From the NCBI GenBank assembly GCA_016286785.1, contig JAEEUB010000009.1:1-37903 (forward strand): a DNA stretch of 37,903 bases, in the 5' to 3' direction. A program made the translations under genes and the position numbers. The stretch is from Candidatus Saccharimonadota bacterium. GTDB taxonomy: Bacteria > Patescibacteriota > Saccharimonadia > Saccharimonadales > Saccharimonadaceae. Positions within the stretch are counted from its first letter, which is position 1, and the number at the start of each line of letters is the position of its first letter. The notes below the pieces were generated by a model. It was given only the letters and a program-made list of their open reading frames with translations. It was not told the DNA's origin and did not search any database. Positions 3,976 to 37,903 of the stretch are shown piece after piece.

Positions 3976-4938
3976 TTATTCTAATCCTTCTGGGCGGTCG
4001 CTAGAGTTAATGATGGTGTTTAGTTTTTCGCTTCTTAGGATATCGGCGTTGTACGCTTCAACTTTGGCATTGTAGCTGTCGATTAAGCTATTGATTTCGT
4101 TGTAGAGTTGTTCTAGAGCCGACTGCTCGCCCACTAGGGCATTTCTTCTTGCATAAAAATCTGCTTCGGATTTAAAACATCCAGCCACATTAGCACAGCT
4201 ATTAAAACTAATAATATCTGCATTTAACTGGCTAACGCGACGATCGTAATCTGTGGTGTTTAATTCAATTTGTTCCGCCAAAGCATTCATCTCTTCTTCT
4301 AGTTGATGGAGCTCAGCTTCTAGCTCGCGAAAAACAACAATATATTTATCGTAAAACTCTACAACTTGGTCTTGGTTTTGAAAATACTTAGAGTAGTGAT
4401 TTTCTAGGACCAAGGGAAGGTTTTTGATCTCTGTGCCGGCGCGCACGTATAGCTCTTCAAACTTTTCTTCTTCTATGTAGTTTGATAGGTCTTCTTTTAA
4501 ATCTTCTTCGTTCTCTTTATAAACTTGATCTAAATATGGTTTTAGAGTGGATTTTTCGGATTCGCTCATACGCGCAAAAACAGCATGTAGCAACTCGTGC
4601 GCCGAGGTTAGCTCCCTTATGCCATCTAATTCCTGCTCCGTAATATTGTATACGTAGATGTTGTCTTCTGTGTAGCAGCCCAGGATTGCCTTTTCATCAT
4701 TTTCTCTCCTGCAGCGGGCATTAAAATCATCCTTAGAATTTAACTCTGGCTGGCTGGCATTAAATAAAAACTCTCCCTCGCCGGTGAGATTTAGGCTGGA
4801 GCGGATTTTGGCCATCTCTGGGGTAATAACGTATGTTTTACCACGCCAAAAATCGTAAAGCCACTGCCTATTTAGGGCGATTGCTATTACTATAGCAATT
4901 AAAGCTAGCAGTAATATGGGTTTAATTAACTTTTTCAT
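3976..4938 (-). CDS. Membrane-anchored HExxH coiled-coil protein, putative metallopeptidase
   Basis: 320 aa. The N-terminal membrane anchor (about 5-23) is followed by an extracytoplasmic region. LTSAHELLHAVFARMSE holds an HExxH zinc motif (His114, Glu115, His118). The acidic segment EELYVRAGTEIKNLP, about 50 residues later, offers a possible third ligand (a Glu). Residues ~200-310 are heptad-rich and probably form a coiled coil, broken by a Cys pair (NSCANVAGC). This could be a gluzincin-like surface peptidase, but a pseudo-enzyme cannot be excluded. Single-gene transcription unit with its own -10. Confidence 0.7.
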   Translation of the reverse strand: MKKLIKPILLLALIAIVIAIALNRQWLYDFWRGKTYVITPEMAKIRSSLNLTGEGEFLFNASQPELNSKDDFNARCRRENDEKAILGCYTEDNIYVYNITEQELDGIRELTSAHELLHAVFARMSESEKSTLKPYLDQVYKENEEDLKEDLSNYIEEEKFEELYVRAGTEIKNLPLVLENHYSKYFQNQDQVVEFYDKYIVVFRELEAELHQLEEEMNALAEQIELNTTDYDRRVSQLNADIISFNSCANVAGCFKSEADFYARRNALVGEQSALEQLYNEINSLIDSYNAKVEAYNADILRSEKLNTIINSSDRPEGLE

Positions 4939-30355: not shown

Positions 30356-30377
30356 CGTATATTTTGTACGTTTTTTT
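30355..30377 (+). terminator. Terminator of tRNA-Leu
   Basis: ACGTA (30355-30359), a 7-nt loop and TACGT (30367-30371) followed by a run of seven T. It overlaps the last base of the tRNA CCA and the stop codon of pepN on the other strand. Confidence 0.7.
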
Positions 30378-32841
30378 ATTGCACTATTATCTTTAATGCT
30401 TCGTAAACTTTTTCTTTATTGTTCTTAATTAGTTTGATTCTGGATTTAATTTCGTTTTCGCCAATTTCGATTGCGCGAGTAAGGGCTGGATCTTCTCTCA
30501 TCGGTCCAAAGAAATCAACGAAACGTTTTAGTTCTTCATCGGTACGAGCCAATCTGGATACTAGCGTTGGGTAATCACTCAAAGTCTTATCGCCACCAGT
30601 TTTTTTGATTAATTCCCAATTTTTCGTCAACCAGTCAAAAGTTTGTTTTTTGGATTTTGGGTTACGATAAAGATAAACAAATAAGTAGAGCTGGTCTTGC
30701 GGTTTAACAACTTCAAAATTACCAAGCAAAGCTACAATTTTTTCTAGTTGTTTTTTGTCACGCACGAGCGCCGCAGAAGAAAGATAATCAAACTTGATGT
30801 CTGGATCTGATGTGTTTTTGTATTTCTCCAAATAATCATCTGTAATTTCTGGCTCTAAGTAAATTTTTGCGCTTAAAATATCATCACGAATTTCGGGGTC
30901 CATTTTTTCTGGATTATTTTCGTACATTTTGGCGAGTTTTTTGAATCTTTTAATATCTTCTGCAAAATAATCTAGCCCCATCAAGTTGGCGCGCAGGCGA
31001 ATTGTATCCTCGTCATCATTCTTTCGAGTTACAATTCCGATTTCTTCTAGTTTTTCGTCAATCAGATTAAACACGTATTTTTTTAGCAATTTTTCTTCGG
31101 CTGATTCGTCATCGACGTAAACCTTGAGATTGCCAATTAATGATGCAACCTTGTTCCAGACGGCTGGTGCGTTTTCTGTTTTGAATTTTTGGGCGAGCGG
31201 AATCAATGAAGCTGCGCTGTCTAGTCCCGCCTGCGTAATTAGGTCACGGTCAATTAAGAGCCGGAGTTTTTGCTCTAGACCCAAATCATCAAAATCGTTT
31301 AATCTTTTTTCAAATTCTGTCTCGGTTAGATTTAGAACATAGTGCCCACTCATGTCCTCGGTGATTTCTGGAATTGGCCATGATTCTTTTTTTATTGGGC
31401 CATCTAGCAAAAATCTTTTTTGTTCGAACTCTTTAAAGTTGCCACCTAAGTTTGTAATTACTGGATATCCAGGCCTATCAATAAAAGCGTGCATTAACTC
31501 GCCCGGATCAAAGTCCGCGTAGGGTTTTAGAGCTTCCCACAAATCGTCACCAATAGTGTTTTGATATTTGTGCTTCTCAAAATAATCAGCGATTCCCTTG
31601 CAAAAGTTTTCCCAACCCATTAAGCGAATCAACATCAGCATTAGCCTGGCGCCTTTTGCATAAACGATAGCGCCATCAAACAAGGTTGCGATTTCTTCTG
31701 GGGTTTTTACATCTTGATGTACGGACTGCACACCCATATGCGCATCACGAAGCAGAGCCGCATAGCAGTCTCCAGTAAAGAAGCTTTCAAAAATCTTGTA
31801 TTCTGGATGGATCGAGTCGACCGCATAATATTCCATTACACTAGCAAAGGATTCGTTTAGCCACAGATCATCCCACCACTGCATTGTAACCAAATCACCA
31901 AACCACTGGTGCGAAAGCTCATGCGCTACCGTAATCGCGACCGACTTTTTGGCCCCTAGGGTAGCTGATTTTCCGACTAACAACATTGACTCGCGATAAG
32001 TTACTAGCCCCCAGTTTTCCATTGCCCCCGCTTCAAAATCCGGCAATGCAACTTGATCTAGTTTTTTTAATGGATAAGAAACTTTAAAATTGTCATCATA
32101 AAACTCTAGACTTTTTGCTGCGATTTTGTTAGCAAAATCTACAGAGTCGATATCCTGATTTAGGGCACAGTAGGTTGCGATTTTAATCCCATGCGCGTTG
32201 GTTATAGTTTTACCATGGAAGCGGCCAATTACCCAGGCAAGTAAGTATGTGGACATTCTGGGGGTTGGTTCAAAAATGTATTCGATATATTTATTTGTGG
32301 TCTTAGTGCCATCCTCGTTATAAAAAACCGCGAGTTTGCCGTCTGGTACCTTGGAATAATTGTTGGTTTTTGCCACTGGCATGTTAGAAAGAATAATTTC
32401 ACCTTCTATACTTGGTACCGTTAGAGACAATTCGAATACCGCTTTAGCAGCGGGTTCATCAATGCACGGGAAGGCCTCTCTTGCATAGTGCGACTCAAAC
32501 TGCGTAGTTACGATTATTTCTGTTTTTTTATTATGCTCGTAAGTGGATAGGTATGCTCCTTCCATGTTTTCATTTAAAGAGCCGTCGTAGGTTATTACGA
32601 TTTCCGCCTTGCCAGGCTTTACATTTAAGATTTCTAGTTCTTTTTTGTCAGCCTTAAACTCGGCATTTTTGCCATTCACTAGTACTTGTTTGATTTTTAG
32701 ATCAACCGCATGAAACTTTATAGACTCTTGCAGGGCTTCGCCAACAACTAGCACTGTGCCACCGATTTTTTTGTCAAACTTATTAATACCAAGGCTTAGC
32801 GTGTATTTTTCTGGCACAAAATAATCTAAAAATCTTTCCAT
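30376..32841 (-). CDS. pepN: M1-family aminopeptidase (PepN-type)
   Basis: 821 aa from the ATG at 32841 (MERFLDYFVPEKYTLSLG), chosen because GAGGAG lies just upstream; a longer in-frame start at 32865 would precede that site. M1 signatures: GAMENWGLVTYRE (about 272-284), zinc-binding HELSHQWFGDL (His307, Glu308, His311), and LWLNESFASVMEY with Glu330. C-terminal helical ERAP1-like domain. Removes N-terminal residues from peptides, which would suit an amino-acid auxotroph. Downstream of ftsH on the same strand, after a 113-nt structured element. Confidence 0.95.
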   Translation of the reverse strand: MERFLDYFVPEKYTLSLGINKFDKKIGGTVLVVGEALQESIKFHAVDLKIKQVLVNGKNAEFKADKKELEILNVKPGKAEIVITYDGSLNENMEGAYLSTYEHNKKTEIIVTTQFESHYAREAFPCIDEPAAKAVFELSLTVPSIEGEIILSNMPVAKTNNYSKVPDGKLAVFYNEDGTKTTNKYIEYIFEPTPRMSTYLLAWVIGRFHGKTITNAHGIKIATYCALNQDIDSVDFANKIAAKSLEFYDDNFKVSYPLKKLDQVALPDFEAGAMENWGLVTYRESMLLVGKSATLGAKKSVAITVAHELSHQWFGDLVTMQWWDDLWLNESFASVMEYYAVDSIHPEYKIFESFFTGDCYAALLRDAHMGVQSVHQDVKTPEEIATLFDGAIVYAKGARLMLMLIRLMGWENFCKGIADYFEKHKYQNTIGDDLWEALKPYADFDPGELMHAFIDRPGYPVITNLGGNFKEFEQKRFLLDGPIKKESWPIPEITEDMSGHYVLNLTETEFEKRLNDFDDLGLEQKLRLLIDRDLITQAGLDSAASLIPLAQKFKTENAPAVWNKVASLIGNLKVYVDDESAEEKLLKKYVFNLIDEKLEEIGIVTRKNDDEDTIRLRANLMGLDYFAEDIKRFKKLAKMYENNPEKMDPEIRDDILSAKIYLEPEITDDYLEKYKNTSDPDIKFDYLSSAALVRDKKQLEKIVALLGNFEVVKPQDQLYLFVYLYRNPKSKKQTFDWLTKNWELIKKTGGDKTLSDYPTLVSRLARTDEELKRFVDFFGPMREDPALTRAIEIGENEIKSRIKLIKNNKEKVYEALKIIVQ

Positions 32842-32857
32842 AATATTCTCCTCAAAT

Positions 32858-32970
32858 GCAATCAATAATACTTTTCTGGGGACGGGTCGTTCGCGCCCGT
32901 CTTTACGGGGCTCACGCCCTCATCCTCGGCAGCAGCCTCCGGAAGCCCCCGAAAAGTATTATTTGATTGC
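32858..32970 (-). other. Highly structured 113-nt element between ftsH and pepN
   Basis: An imperfect ~24-bp inverted repeat closes the element: arms 32858-32881 (GCAATCAATAATACTTTTCT then GGGG) and 32946-32970; the arms differ by one inserted A and one mismatch. The interior (~64 nt) is much richer in G and C than its flanks and can fold into several small hairpins, including GACGGG..CCCGTC (32881-32901) and GGGC-GTGA-GCCC read on the minus strand. It starts 13 nt after the ftsH stop and ends 16 nt before the pepN ATG, just ahead of its ribosome site. No T-tract, so it is not an ordinary terminator; candidates are a riboswitch-like leader, an RNA-processing site or a small mobile element. 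Confidence 0.65.
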
Positions 32971-32983
32971 GTTAATGATAATG

Positions 32984-34906
32984 TTAATGTAGTTTTACGA
33001 TTGTGGGTAATTTGGCGGGTTTTAATATTGGCTCTAATTCCGCTTCTTCTAGAGTTTCGTGGGCCAAAAGTTCCTCTGCTAGTTTATCAAGAACAGCTTT
33101 GTTAGCTTTTAATACTTCTTCGGCACGTTTAGCGGCTTCGTCGGAAAGCTTTTTAATCTCGGCGTCGATGGTTTCGGAAGTTTTTTCTGAATACGGCTTG
33201 CCAGCGGTAATCGTATAATATCCGGTGGCCTCGGATGGGAAAACTTGGTTGCGAGTGCCTTCACCCATACCTTCTTCTACGATCATCGACTTTGCGAGTT
33301 CGGCAACATTTCTTAGGTCGGAAGAAGCGCCAGTCGTGACTGCATCTTTACCAAAAATAAGTTTTTCGGCGATGCGGCCACCCATAGCTCTGGCTAGGAT
33401 GTCTTTCAGCTCGTAAATACTCTTGTAGCTACGATCTTCTGGAGGTAGGAACCAAGTTACGCCACCAGTTTGGCCTCTTGGAATAATAGTAACTTTATGC
33501 ACCGGGTCAGAGTCTGGGAGTACATGCCCCACTACGGCATGGCCGGCCTCGTGATAGGCCGTAATTTTGCGCTCTTTTTCGTTCATGACTTTAGATTTAC
33601 GTTCTGGGCCAATTGCTACTCTTTCAAAGGCTTCGGTTAAATCTTTATTTGATATGGCCTTATGGCCTTCACGGGCAGCGGTAATAGCGGCTTCGTTTGC
33701 GATATTAGCAAGATCCGCACCAGAAGAACCAGCCGTCTTTTTGGCGAGAGATTCTAAATCTACATTTTCTTCTACGGGTTTGCCTTTAAAATGCACTTTT
33801 AAGATTTCTAGGCGGTCTTTACGCTCTGGCAAGGTAACATTAACGTGTCTATCAAAACGACCAGGGCGAAGCAAGGCCTTATCTAGCATATCTACACGGT
33901 TGGTAGCGGCCATTACGATTACGCCAGAGTCATTATCAAATCCATCCATTTCTACCAGTATTTGGTTTAATGTTTGTTCGTCTTCTCGTCCTGCTCCACC
34001 GCGAGCATCACGCTTGTGAGCTACAGCGTCAATTTCATCTATAAAGATGATGGAAGGGGCATTCTTTTTAGCTTTATTAAATAGATCCCTAACCCTAGAA
34101 GCACCTACGCCAACAAACATTTCGGCAAATTCTGAGCCAGAGATTGAGAAAAACGGTACGTTAGCCTCACCAGCAACGGCACGGGCCATTAAGGTTTTGC
34201 CAGTACCAGGGTCGCCCGCTAGCAAAACGCCACGCGGGATTTTGGCGCCGAGCTTTTCGTATTTTTTGGGGCTTTTTAGAAAGTCTACGATTTCGGTTAA
34301 ATCTTGTTTGGCGGCTTCGTTTCCGGCTACGTCTTTAAATGTGACTTTTTTCTTATCGGGACCATATAATCTTGCTCTTGATTTGCCAAAAGACATAGAT
34401 TGGCTATTGGCCATGTTGGCCTGCTTCATCATCCACGAGAAGAAGATTACGATTGCGATGATTGGCAGTACGGTTAGAGCTACATCTAAAATGATTCCCC
34501 AAACGTTAACTTCTTCTTTATATTCGATAACTGGGTAGTTTTCTTGACATTTTGTGAGTTCTTCGCCGCTAAGTTTTTCGCAGTAGTTAACTAAGCCCTG
34601 GTCGTACAAAGTCCCGGAACCATCCTTAATTGATGTCTCCGTTGGCTGGTCTTTATCTTTTAAAGTAATATCTAGATTGTTGCCAGTAACAGTTATTTTA
34701 GCAATGTCACCCTCTGGGTCGTTTGCTCTAGCGATTACATCGGAAATCGGAACATCGGTTTTTTTAACTGGATTAGAGTTAAAGCTAAATAATAAAAATA
34801 CACCGAGGCCAATTAAAACAAAAGTAAACAAAAAACTTCTAGAAACATTAGAAGCATTATTATTTACTTTTTTGCCACTTGTACTGTTTTTAATTTTATC
34901 CGCCAC
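32984..34906 (-). CDS. ftsH: ATP-dependent zinc metalloprotease FtsH (copy 1)
   Basis: 640 aa with a GTG start at 34906 (AAGGAGG upstream). Two membrane segments (about 24-42, 137-158) frame an outside region of ~95 residues. AAA core: Walker A GDPGTGKT (231-238), IIFIDEID, and the pore-region [21 protein letters not shown]; zinc HEAGH (452-456) with a downstream Asp in the M41 domain. Membrane-protein quality control. Codons are AT-rich like the neighbours. A second, plus-strand copy starts at 36371. Confidence 0.97.
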
Positions 34907-36032: not shown

Positions 36033-36156
36033 CAGGGCTCTTGCTTTGGCTTCGCCAAACCAAGACCATAGGGCGTCGCCTCCAAAAATCTAAAATAAAT
36101 TTTAGATTTTTACTCGGCTCCTACTATGGCTGAACCTACGGTTCAGGGCCCTGCCA
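36030..36156 (+). other. Multibranch hairpin region after the VanY-like gene
   Basis: Nested inverted repeats: outer TGACAGGGCTC (36030-36040) with GGGCCCTGCCA (36146-36156); TTTGGC-TTC-GCCAAA (36045-36059); CCATAG with CTATGG (36066-36071, 36124-36129) enclosing a perfect 12-bp stem with a TAAA loop (36084-36111); and CTGAACC-TAC-GGTTCAG (36130-36146). The outer stem contains the VanY-like stop codon. No matching family is known to me; it may be a 3' UTR RNA structure or a short palindromic mobile element. Confidence 0.6.
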
Positions 36157-36162
36157 CTAAAT

Positions 36163-36206
36163 CACAAAGAAAAAAATCGACCCTGCGGGTCCATTTTTTC
36201 TTTGTG
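36163..36206. terminator. Bidirectional terminator between the VanY-like gene and tRNA-Pro
   Basis: 13-bp outer stem CACAAAGAAAAAA / TTTTTTCTTTGTG (36163-36175, 36194-36206) with an inner GACCC-TGC-GGGTC hairpin (36179-36191). T-runs on both strands let it end VanY-like transcripts going right and tRNA-Pro(TGG) transcripts going left. Confidence 0.75.
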
Positions 36207-36280
36207 GTCTGGGTGACAGGACTTGAACCTGCGACCTCGACTTCCCAAAAGTCGCGCGCTACCAACTGTGCTACACCCAG
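36205..36280 (-). tRNA. trnP(TGG): tRNA-Pro (anticodon TGG)
   Basis: 76 nt: acceptor CTGGGTG / CACCCAG, anticodon arm CGACT-TTTGGGA-AGTCG (anticodon TGG), T-arm GTTCAAGT, discriminator A and encoded CCA. Its promoter has TGATATAAT (TATAAT 36292-36297), the same form as for tRNA-Pro(CGG). It diverges from ftsH copy 2. Confidence 0.95.
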
Positions 36281-36343
36281 ACGGTAATATTATTATATCA
36301 CATTTATTTAATTAATAAAACTACTTTTCGAAGCCATTCATGA

Positions 36344-36349
36344 TAAAAT
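36344..36349 (+). promoter_or_regulatory. Extended -10 of ftsH copy 2
   Basis: Plus-strand TGATAAAAT with TAAAAT at 36344-36349. The ATG at 36371 has AAGGAG upstream, so this mRNA has a short leader with a real ribosome site. Confidence 0.6.
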
Positions 36350-36370
36350 GGTTACATTAAGGAGAAAAAC

Positions 36371-37903
36371 ATGTCAGATAATACTAGGCCAAAAATGCCG
36401 CCAAAAAATGCGCCAAAGAGTTCCAATACTGCACGCGGAATTCTCTTTGCTGTAGTTGTGGTTTGCCTTTGCTTGTTAATTGTCAACAATCTAAATTCCA
36501 AGGGTGTTGAAAAGATCGAAGTGCCAATTTCGGAAGTGATTGCTCGCGCCAACGACCCAGAAGGTAACATCAAAAAAATCACCGTAACCGGCGACAACCT
36601 CGAGATCACCCTGAAAGACCAAGACGAGCCAACTGAAACCTCTAGAAAAGACGCTTCGGGTACGCTCTATGACCAAGGCCTCGTTAATCGTTGCGCAGAC
36701 CTAGACGGCAACGAACTTGTTGAGTGCAAGAAACTTTATCCAACCATCGAATATAAAGAAGACATCGACGTGATGGGGATTGTGTTAAACGTTGGGCTCA
36801 CAGTTTTGCCAATTCTGGCTATTATCTTCTTCCTTTCTTACATGATGCGCCAGGCGCAATCCGCTAACAACCAAAGCATGAGCTTTGGCAAATCGCGCGC
36901 CCGCCTTTATGGCCCAGACAAAAAACGCATCACCTTTAACGACGTAGCGGGTAACGAAGCCGCTAAGCAAGACCTCACTGAAATCGTAGACTTTTTAAAG
37001 AATCCAAAGAAATACGAAAAACTTGGTGCCAAGATTCCGCGTGGCGTTTTGCTCGCTGGTGACCCAGGTACTGGTAAAACTTTGATGGCGCGCGCCGTGG
37101 CCGGCGAAGCCAATGTGCCGTTCTTCTCGATTTCTGGTTCTGAATTTGCCGAAATGTTTGTAGGTGTAGGCGCCTCCCGCGTGCGCGACCTCTTCGCCAA
37201 AGCCAAGAAAAACGCTCCATCAATTATCTTTATCGATGAAATTGACGCCGTGGCTCACAAACGTGACGCCAAGGGCGGCGCTGGTCGTGAAGATGAGCAA
37301 ACCTTGAACCAAATCCTCGTTGAGATGGATGGTTTCGACAACGAATCTGGCGTCATTGTGATGGCTGCCACCAACCGCGTCGACATGCTTGATAAAGCTT
37401 TGCTTCGCCCGGGCCGTTTTGATCGCCACATCAATGTGACCTTGCCAGAAAGAAAAGATCGTCTCGAAATTTTGAAAGTTCATTTCAAAAATAAACCAGT
37501 TGAAAGCGACGTAGATCTCGAAGCGATGGCCGCCAAAACCGCCGGCTCCTCTGGTGCCGACCTCGCAAACATCGCCAACGAAGCTGCTATTACCGCTGCG
37601 CGCGAAGGCCACAAAGCTATTTCAAATGCCGACCTCACCGAAGCCTTTGAGCGCGTCGCGATTGGTCCAGAACGCAAGTCCAAAGTCATGAACGACCAAG
37701 AAAAGAAAATCACGGCTTATCACGAAGCTGGCCACGCCATCGTTGGCCACGTGCTTCCAAATTCTGACCCGGTTCACAAAGTTACGATTATCCCACGTGG
37801 CAGCACCGGCGGTGTGACTTGGTTCTTGCCTCCAGAAGACCGCAGCTACAAGAGTATTTATGACCTTAAAGACATTTTGGCTCGCGCTATGGGTGGCCGT
37901 GTC
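36371..37903 (+). CDS. ftsH: FtsH metalloprotease, second copy, cut by the window edge
   Basis: 511 codons visible, reading open at the right edge. Same architecture as copy 1: two membrane segments, GDPGTGKT Walker [22 protein letters not shown], and HEAGH. Protein identity with copy 1 is very high across the AAA core, but codon choice differs sharply: in 55 aligned codons (37160-37324) I count about 31 ending in G or C, against about 15 in copy 1. AAGGAG precedes the ATG. The M41 third zinc ligand region and C-terminus lie outside the window. Confidence 0.96.

Follow-up and report, generated by a model that had tools for sequence, protein, structure and literature searches.

Palindromic elements with cores common to different sites and arms that vary from site to site are dispersed in Saccharibacteria, with one copy upstream of pepN

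Protein-coding palindromes were once described as a peculiarity of Rickettsia, as the title of Ogata et al. (2002; cited via PMC10969869) indicates. The Rickettsia palindromic elements (RPE) are palindromes of 105-146 bp that belong to several families, are dispersed through the genome and insert in frame in protein genes and also in RNA genes, including RNase P RNA; their mobility is unexplained (PMC2229807, PMC10969869). The YPAL/RU-2 elements of Yersinia, which are likewise small palindromic repeats, have targets that either extend across a region of dyad symmetry or lie next to one, and both empty and filled sites are described for them (PMC2229807). Template switching between inverted-repeat arms is reported to homogenise the arms and to invert spacers, also in coding sequence (PMC8604942), and it is also reported to create and maintain RNA hairpins (PMC8794818). 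The spread of protein-coding palindromes is a long-open question, and our search of open-access papers returned no account of them from Saccharibacteria or from elsewhere in the Candidate Phyla Radiation.

The window (the whole 37.9-kb stretch of DNA that was analysed) contains a 113-nt palindromic element between the stop codon of ftsH and the start codon of pepN, two genes on the minus strand (Table 1). It is the longest inverted repeat reported across the window. The left arm (GCAATCAATAATACTTTTCT) pairs with the right arm (GAAAAGTATTATTTGATTGC) with one bulged base. The preliminary description had given an imperfect stem of 24-25 bp around a GC-rich multi-hairpin interior; the imperfection and the interior were recovered, while the length was not, as the outer stem comprises ~19-20 bp and the inverted repeat reaches 41 nt only at 71% pairing. 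The unusually strong structure ascribed to the element was borne out on both strands: the MFE of the 113 nt on the plus strand was -52.9 kcal/mol (z -6.4), that of the minus strand, which is the gene sense, was -63.2 kcal/mol with 10-nt flanks (z -7.6), and 0 of 200 shuffles equalled either value. The pepN Shine-Dalgarno sequence GAGGAG (32853-32848) is intact beside the element. The placement between the two genes, just ahead of the pepN ribosome site, thus stands as first described, as does the absence of a T-tract, a feature of intrinsic terminators, after the stem on the minus strand (ATTGCATTTGAGGAG).

Table 1. Coordinates of the element, its parts and the adjacent genes in the window.
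Feature	Position	Strand	Basis
Palindromic mobile element, family 1	32858..32970 (covariance-model match 32856-32973)	-	Fold z, model match, gap mostly empty in relatives
Branched GC-rich core, common to different sites	32878..32950	-	Conserved across copies; inner helices covary
Outer-stem arm, 3' arm in gene sense (left arm)	32858..32877	-	Pairs with 32951-32970; arm sequence site-variable, complementarity kept
Outer-stem arm, 5' arm in gene sense (right arm)	32951..32970	-	Pairs with 32858-32877; arm sequence site-variable, complementarity kept
pepN (aminopeptidase N), downstream, intact	30376..32841	-	NCBIfam TIGR02412, 267 bits, under the model cut-off; ATG at 32841 from alignment to relatives
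ftsH, upstream, intact	32984..34906	-	NCBIfam TIGR01241, 724 bits, over the cut-off; stop codon at 32984

Searches with a 133-nt query gave matches in 46 of 100 relatives, nearly all of the same genus and many with multiple copies. A covariance model was built from 20 copies, including the one in the window, which as a member of the building set matched it with 118.5 bits (1.8e-28). Two-sided changes were present in 29 of the 38 pairs of the model, and the covariation score was 0.403 as compared to 0.158 when shuffled and at most 0.20 when slid. The model matched in 158 of 174 genomes of the genus, many of which carried at least 21 copies, and a class-wide search gave matches only in genera of the same family (a few sister genera), which confines family 1 to one bacterial family among those sampled. 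The exact core pattern was present in 67 stretches of GTDB contigs, all from Candidatus Saccharibacteria and many from the ruminant digestive tract. It was missing from the viral contigs of IMG/VR, and carriage by phages was rejected on this ground. The preliminary description had listed a small palindromic mobile element among its readings and had suggested a search of relatives for copies and compensatory changes; both were found, and the element almost certainly belongs, as one copy, to a palindromic mobile family that is dispersed.

Once known orthologous duplicates had been removed, 63 copies remained, several of them still from the truB site, and 41 of these were located in frame within a gene (27 sense, 14 antisense), the criterion being that the two flanks matched a single gene in a reference genome. 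The window's own genome has four other copies, which reside, again in frame, in der, ligA, leuS and the gene of an RlmD-type methyltransferase, so that four of its five copies are intragenic. The truB gene is a hot spot: in a large share of the 124 genus genomes with a TruB match the domain match is split by extra sequence, and the frame was open in the 39 truB genes that were fetched, in most of which the linker that follows EGEI contained an additional segment. These segments derive from several unrelated palindromic families. Peptides encoded by inserts (e.g., GLPEVTTEDEGASPVTTGASDPSP) would lie inside TruB or IleS if the inserts are translated and not removed. At the truB loci L092-L131, unrelated palindromic families were observed at sites that are also used by family 1. 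A ~105-nt palindrome of another family, not family 1, occupies a variable stem of the RNase P RNA of genome G143 (L268:4341-4446; RNase P RNA 4225-4658), and in the sister genome G055 this stem carries a short hairpin. Conserved protein genes and an RNA gene thus carry inserts, which affects the annotation of Saccharibacteria proteins.

The closest analogue of the Saccharibacteria element is the RPE, which it resembles in size (113 nt with a strong stem), in the existence of several families, in dispersal and in the in-frame insertions in protein genes; the likeness in RNA genes concerns the other palindromic family found in RNase P RNA and not family 1. The host is different, Saccharibacteria and not Rickettsia, and homology was not detectable when the encoded peptides were compared with NCBIfam and Pfam and the DNA with Rfam, a comparison made through these models. 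As five encoded peptides matched no NCBIfam or Pfam model at E<=5, the element works like an RPE but is not classed as one. Both core orientations within genes, site-bound arms and core replacement are features of the Saccharibacteria element, with no claim that RPE lack them.

The gap between ftsH and pepN measures mostly 1-20 nt in 29 further genus genomes, as compared to 134 nt here, and in four relatives (L033, L037, L040 and L061) it is occupied by other palindrome types. The window copy is an insertion into a short gap, by which neither ftsH nor pepN nor the ribosome site of pepN was damaged. Because even the genomes nearest to the window are distant (74% in the PepN N-terminus), its pre-insertion site cannot be read base by base; at orthologous sites, the element is inserted where relatives are empty. 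A structured cis-acting RNA, be it a riboswitch, a leader or a processing element, acting on pepN or in gene regulation generally, would agree with the strong covarying fold and with the location just before the pepN ribosome site. However, most relatives lack the element before pepN, and the orientation is not fixed, as the sense and antisense copies within genes illustrate. Rfam gave no match to the element stretch at E<=5, a result that would not reveal an undescribed RNA class, and tRNAs only across the whole window. Furthermore, template switching is reported to be able to generate covariation (PMC8794818) and could explain the covariation of the arms in the absence of an RNA function. 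A cis-acting RNA is therefore a very improbable explanation. The riboswitch-like leader for pepN that had been considered at first was rejected, with orthologous gaps mostly empty and copies dispersed in unrelated genes in both orientations. Any effect on the processing or stability of the ftsH-pepN mRNA would be an incidental by-product of the insertion. For the prediction of non-coding RNAs it follows that covariation of the kind seen here need not imply RNA function.

The unusual part of the family is its anatomy, in which shared cores are enclosed by unrelated, self-complementary arms. On a set of copies, cores of ~70 nt were near-identical at different sites, while the arms of ~20 nt were tied to the site, and at one and the same site the core could be inverted or replaced. 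Among pairs with 97-100% identical cores (66 copies), the arms were on average 57% identical, a value raised by three orthologous pairs; most of the other pairs had arms near 45-55% identity, as compared to 35% for shuffled arms, and copies at different sites of one genome had arms that were 47-49% identical. The arm complementarity score was 17.4 within a copy and 6.2 between copies. The terminal inverted repeats were accordingly complementary in each copy and mostly near background identity between sites, with a weak consensus, AATAAyACtyTTC. At the truB site, where the arms were 63-78% identical between species, related arms held the core in both orientations. Sister genomes differed in core family at orthologous spots: G143 (G143:C2:13682) as compared to G140 and G055, G143 (G143_C2:80031) as compared to G055, and L280 as compared to L341, where a second palindrome has taken the place of half of the first. 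These observations indicate that the arms probably belong to the sites and that the core is the transferable part. In the truB gene of genome G119 (L070), a coreless gene with decayed arm-like sequence (GATTCAGGAATATG..CATTTTAGAATCC) was observed, which is possibly a footprint of core loss.

Among the pairs of empty and filled alleles, one was clean. Its empty allele (L306), which lies where the ends of two convergent genes meet, forms a palindrome of its own (AACTGTAA followed by TTACAGTT), and in the filled allele (L288) the element is positioned exactly at the dyad centre of this palindrome, with both stop codons kept. The other pairs differ by 5-30 nt of host sequence at the junction, and with this divergence no clear target-site duplication was seen at the pairs examined. 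At L210 the site is empty and the whole element is absent. The preference for dyad symmetry and the occurrence of empty and filled sites are shared with YPAL, which differs in that its insertion produces target duplications of 3-26 bp and most of its copies lie between genes, while here duplications are not clear and the copies are mostly intragenic. A simple inverted duplication of the target, in which one arm is always native, was unsupported at L210 and at the ileS copies; the truB copies and L293 fit it partly.

These data bear on the possibility that the family is a conventional MITE, in which a transposase that acts in trans moves arms and core together and the arms diverge later with compensatory changes. 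The absence of whole elements from empty sites such as L210 is in line with this, and so is the weak arm consensus, which is clearest in intergenic copies (GCAATCA.AATAATACTTTT is common to the arms of the window copy, L281 and L293). On the other hand, cores of 97-100% identity within unrelated arms would require many paired changes in the arms and almost none in the core, and the variation of core orientation and core family within related arms at truB is not accounted for. The target-site duplication is not seen at the pairs examined, and a transposase of the Y1 class, the class that was searched, is missing in 58 of 60 genomes. We consider a MITE improbable.

The search for a mobilising enzyme also addressed REP/BIME-type repeats moved by a RAYT (Y1) transposase. 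Like these, the elements are palindromic, dispersed and partly intergenic, with conserved inner hairpins, and effects on mRNA stability are possible in both cases. Y1_Tnp was found in only 2 of the 60 genus genomes searched, and the window's own genome is among those that lack it; as genomes with many copies have no Y1 gene, RAYT-mediated movement is contradicted. The copies are mostly intragenic and not extragenic, and both the length and the long site-specific arms differ from REP/BIME, which makes this the most improbable of the explanations considered. RVT_1 reverse transcriptases are encoded in 40 of the 60 genomes (e.g., L421-L423). They are lacking in the window's own genome and in the copy-rich genomes G024, G025 and G035, and a reverse transcriptase was therefore rejected as a requirement. 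The searches for Y1 transposases and reverse transcriptases thus yielded no enzyme that would mobilise the family.

The reading that we favour, at a probability of about three in four with its inferred steps included, is that of a palindromic element that is non-autonomous: its core would be copied into hairpins, and its arms would owe their lasting complementarity to template switching. During replication or repair, the core would enter or replace the loop of a hairpin, which may be a prior palindrome or an earlier element. Template switching between hairpins would be the vehicle, and it would also preserve arm complementarity, cause spacer inversion and transfer a copy of one host flank to the opposite arm. 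Arm homogenisation and spacer inversion in coding DNA are features of the template switching described for quasipalindromes (PMC8604942), a process that is known at single-locus short repeats and not for the spread of a core between sites. That template switching is the agent, and not an unseen enzyme, is conceivable at somewhat less than even odds. The stronger proposal of a transposase-independent mobile DNA, in which a short core spreads only by copying into hairpin loops via template switching, is rather unlikely. If it were true, the loops used would be those of existing palindromes, terminators, RNA-gene helices and earlier elements, the arms would be owned by the host or the site, the cores would compete for sites, and truB and similar hot spots would act as docking hairpins that different core families occupy in turn.

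Several points weigh against the favoured reading. Most pairs of empty and filled alleles are not clean. The empty palindrome in L306 may be what core loss left behind and not the pre-insertion state; the more distant genome G001 has no palindrome at this site. Given the weak arm consensus, some of the arm sequence may move together with the core, and the conserved arms at truB could have arisen from insertions that recurred at a host sequence which is itself conserved. A core swap was not caught between near-identical strains. With this separate, abundant case in a large group of bacteria with reduced genomes, comparison by itself can test how such elements spread, as there are many species and empty sites as well as swapped cores and arms bound to their sites.

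Elsewhere in the window, the antisense ORFs at 36208-37903 resemble those over ftsH, which suggests a second ftsH-like gene on the plus strand that reaches the end of the window and is adjacent to a tRNA like the first ftsH. A 36-nt imperfect inverted repeat (72%) was present at 36140-36229, at the edge of the tRNA at 36208-36280.
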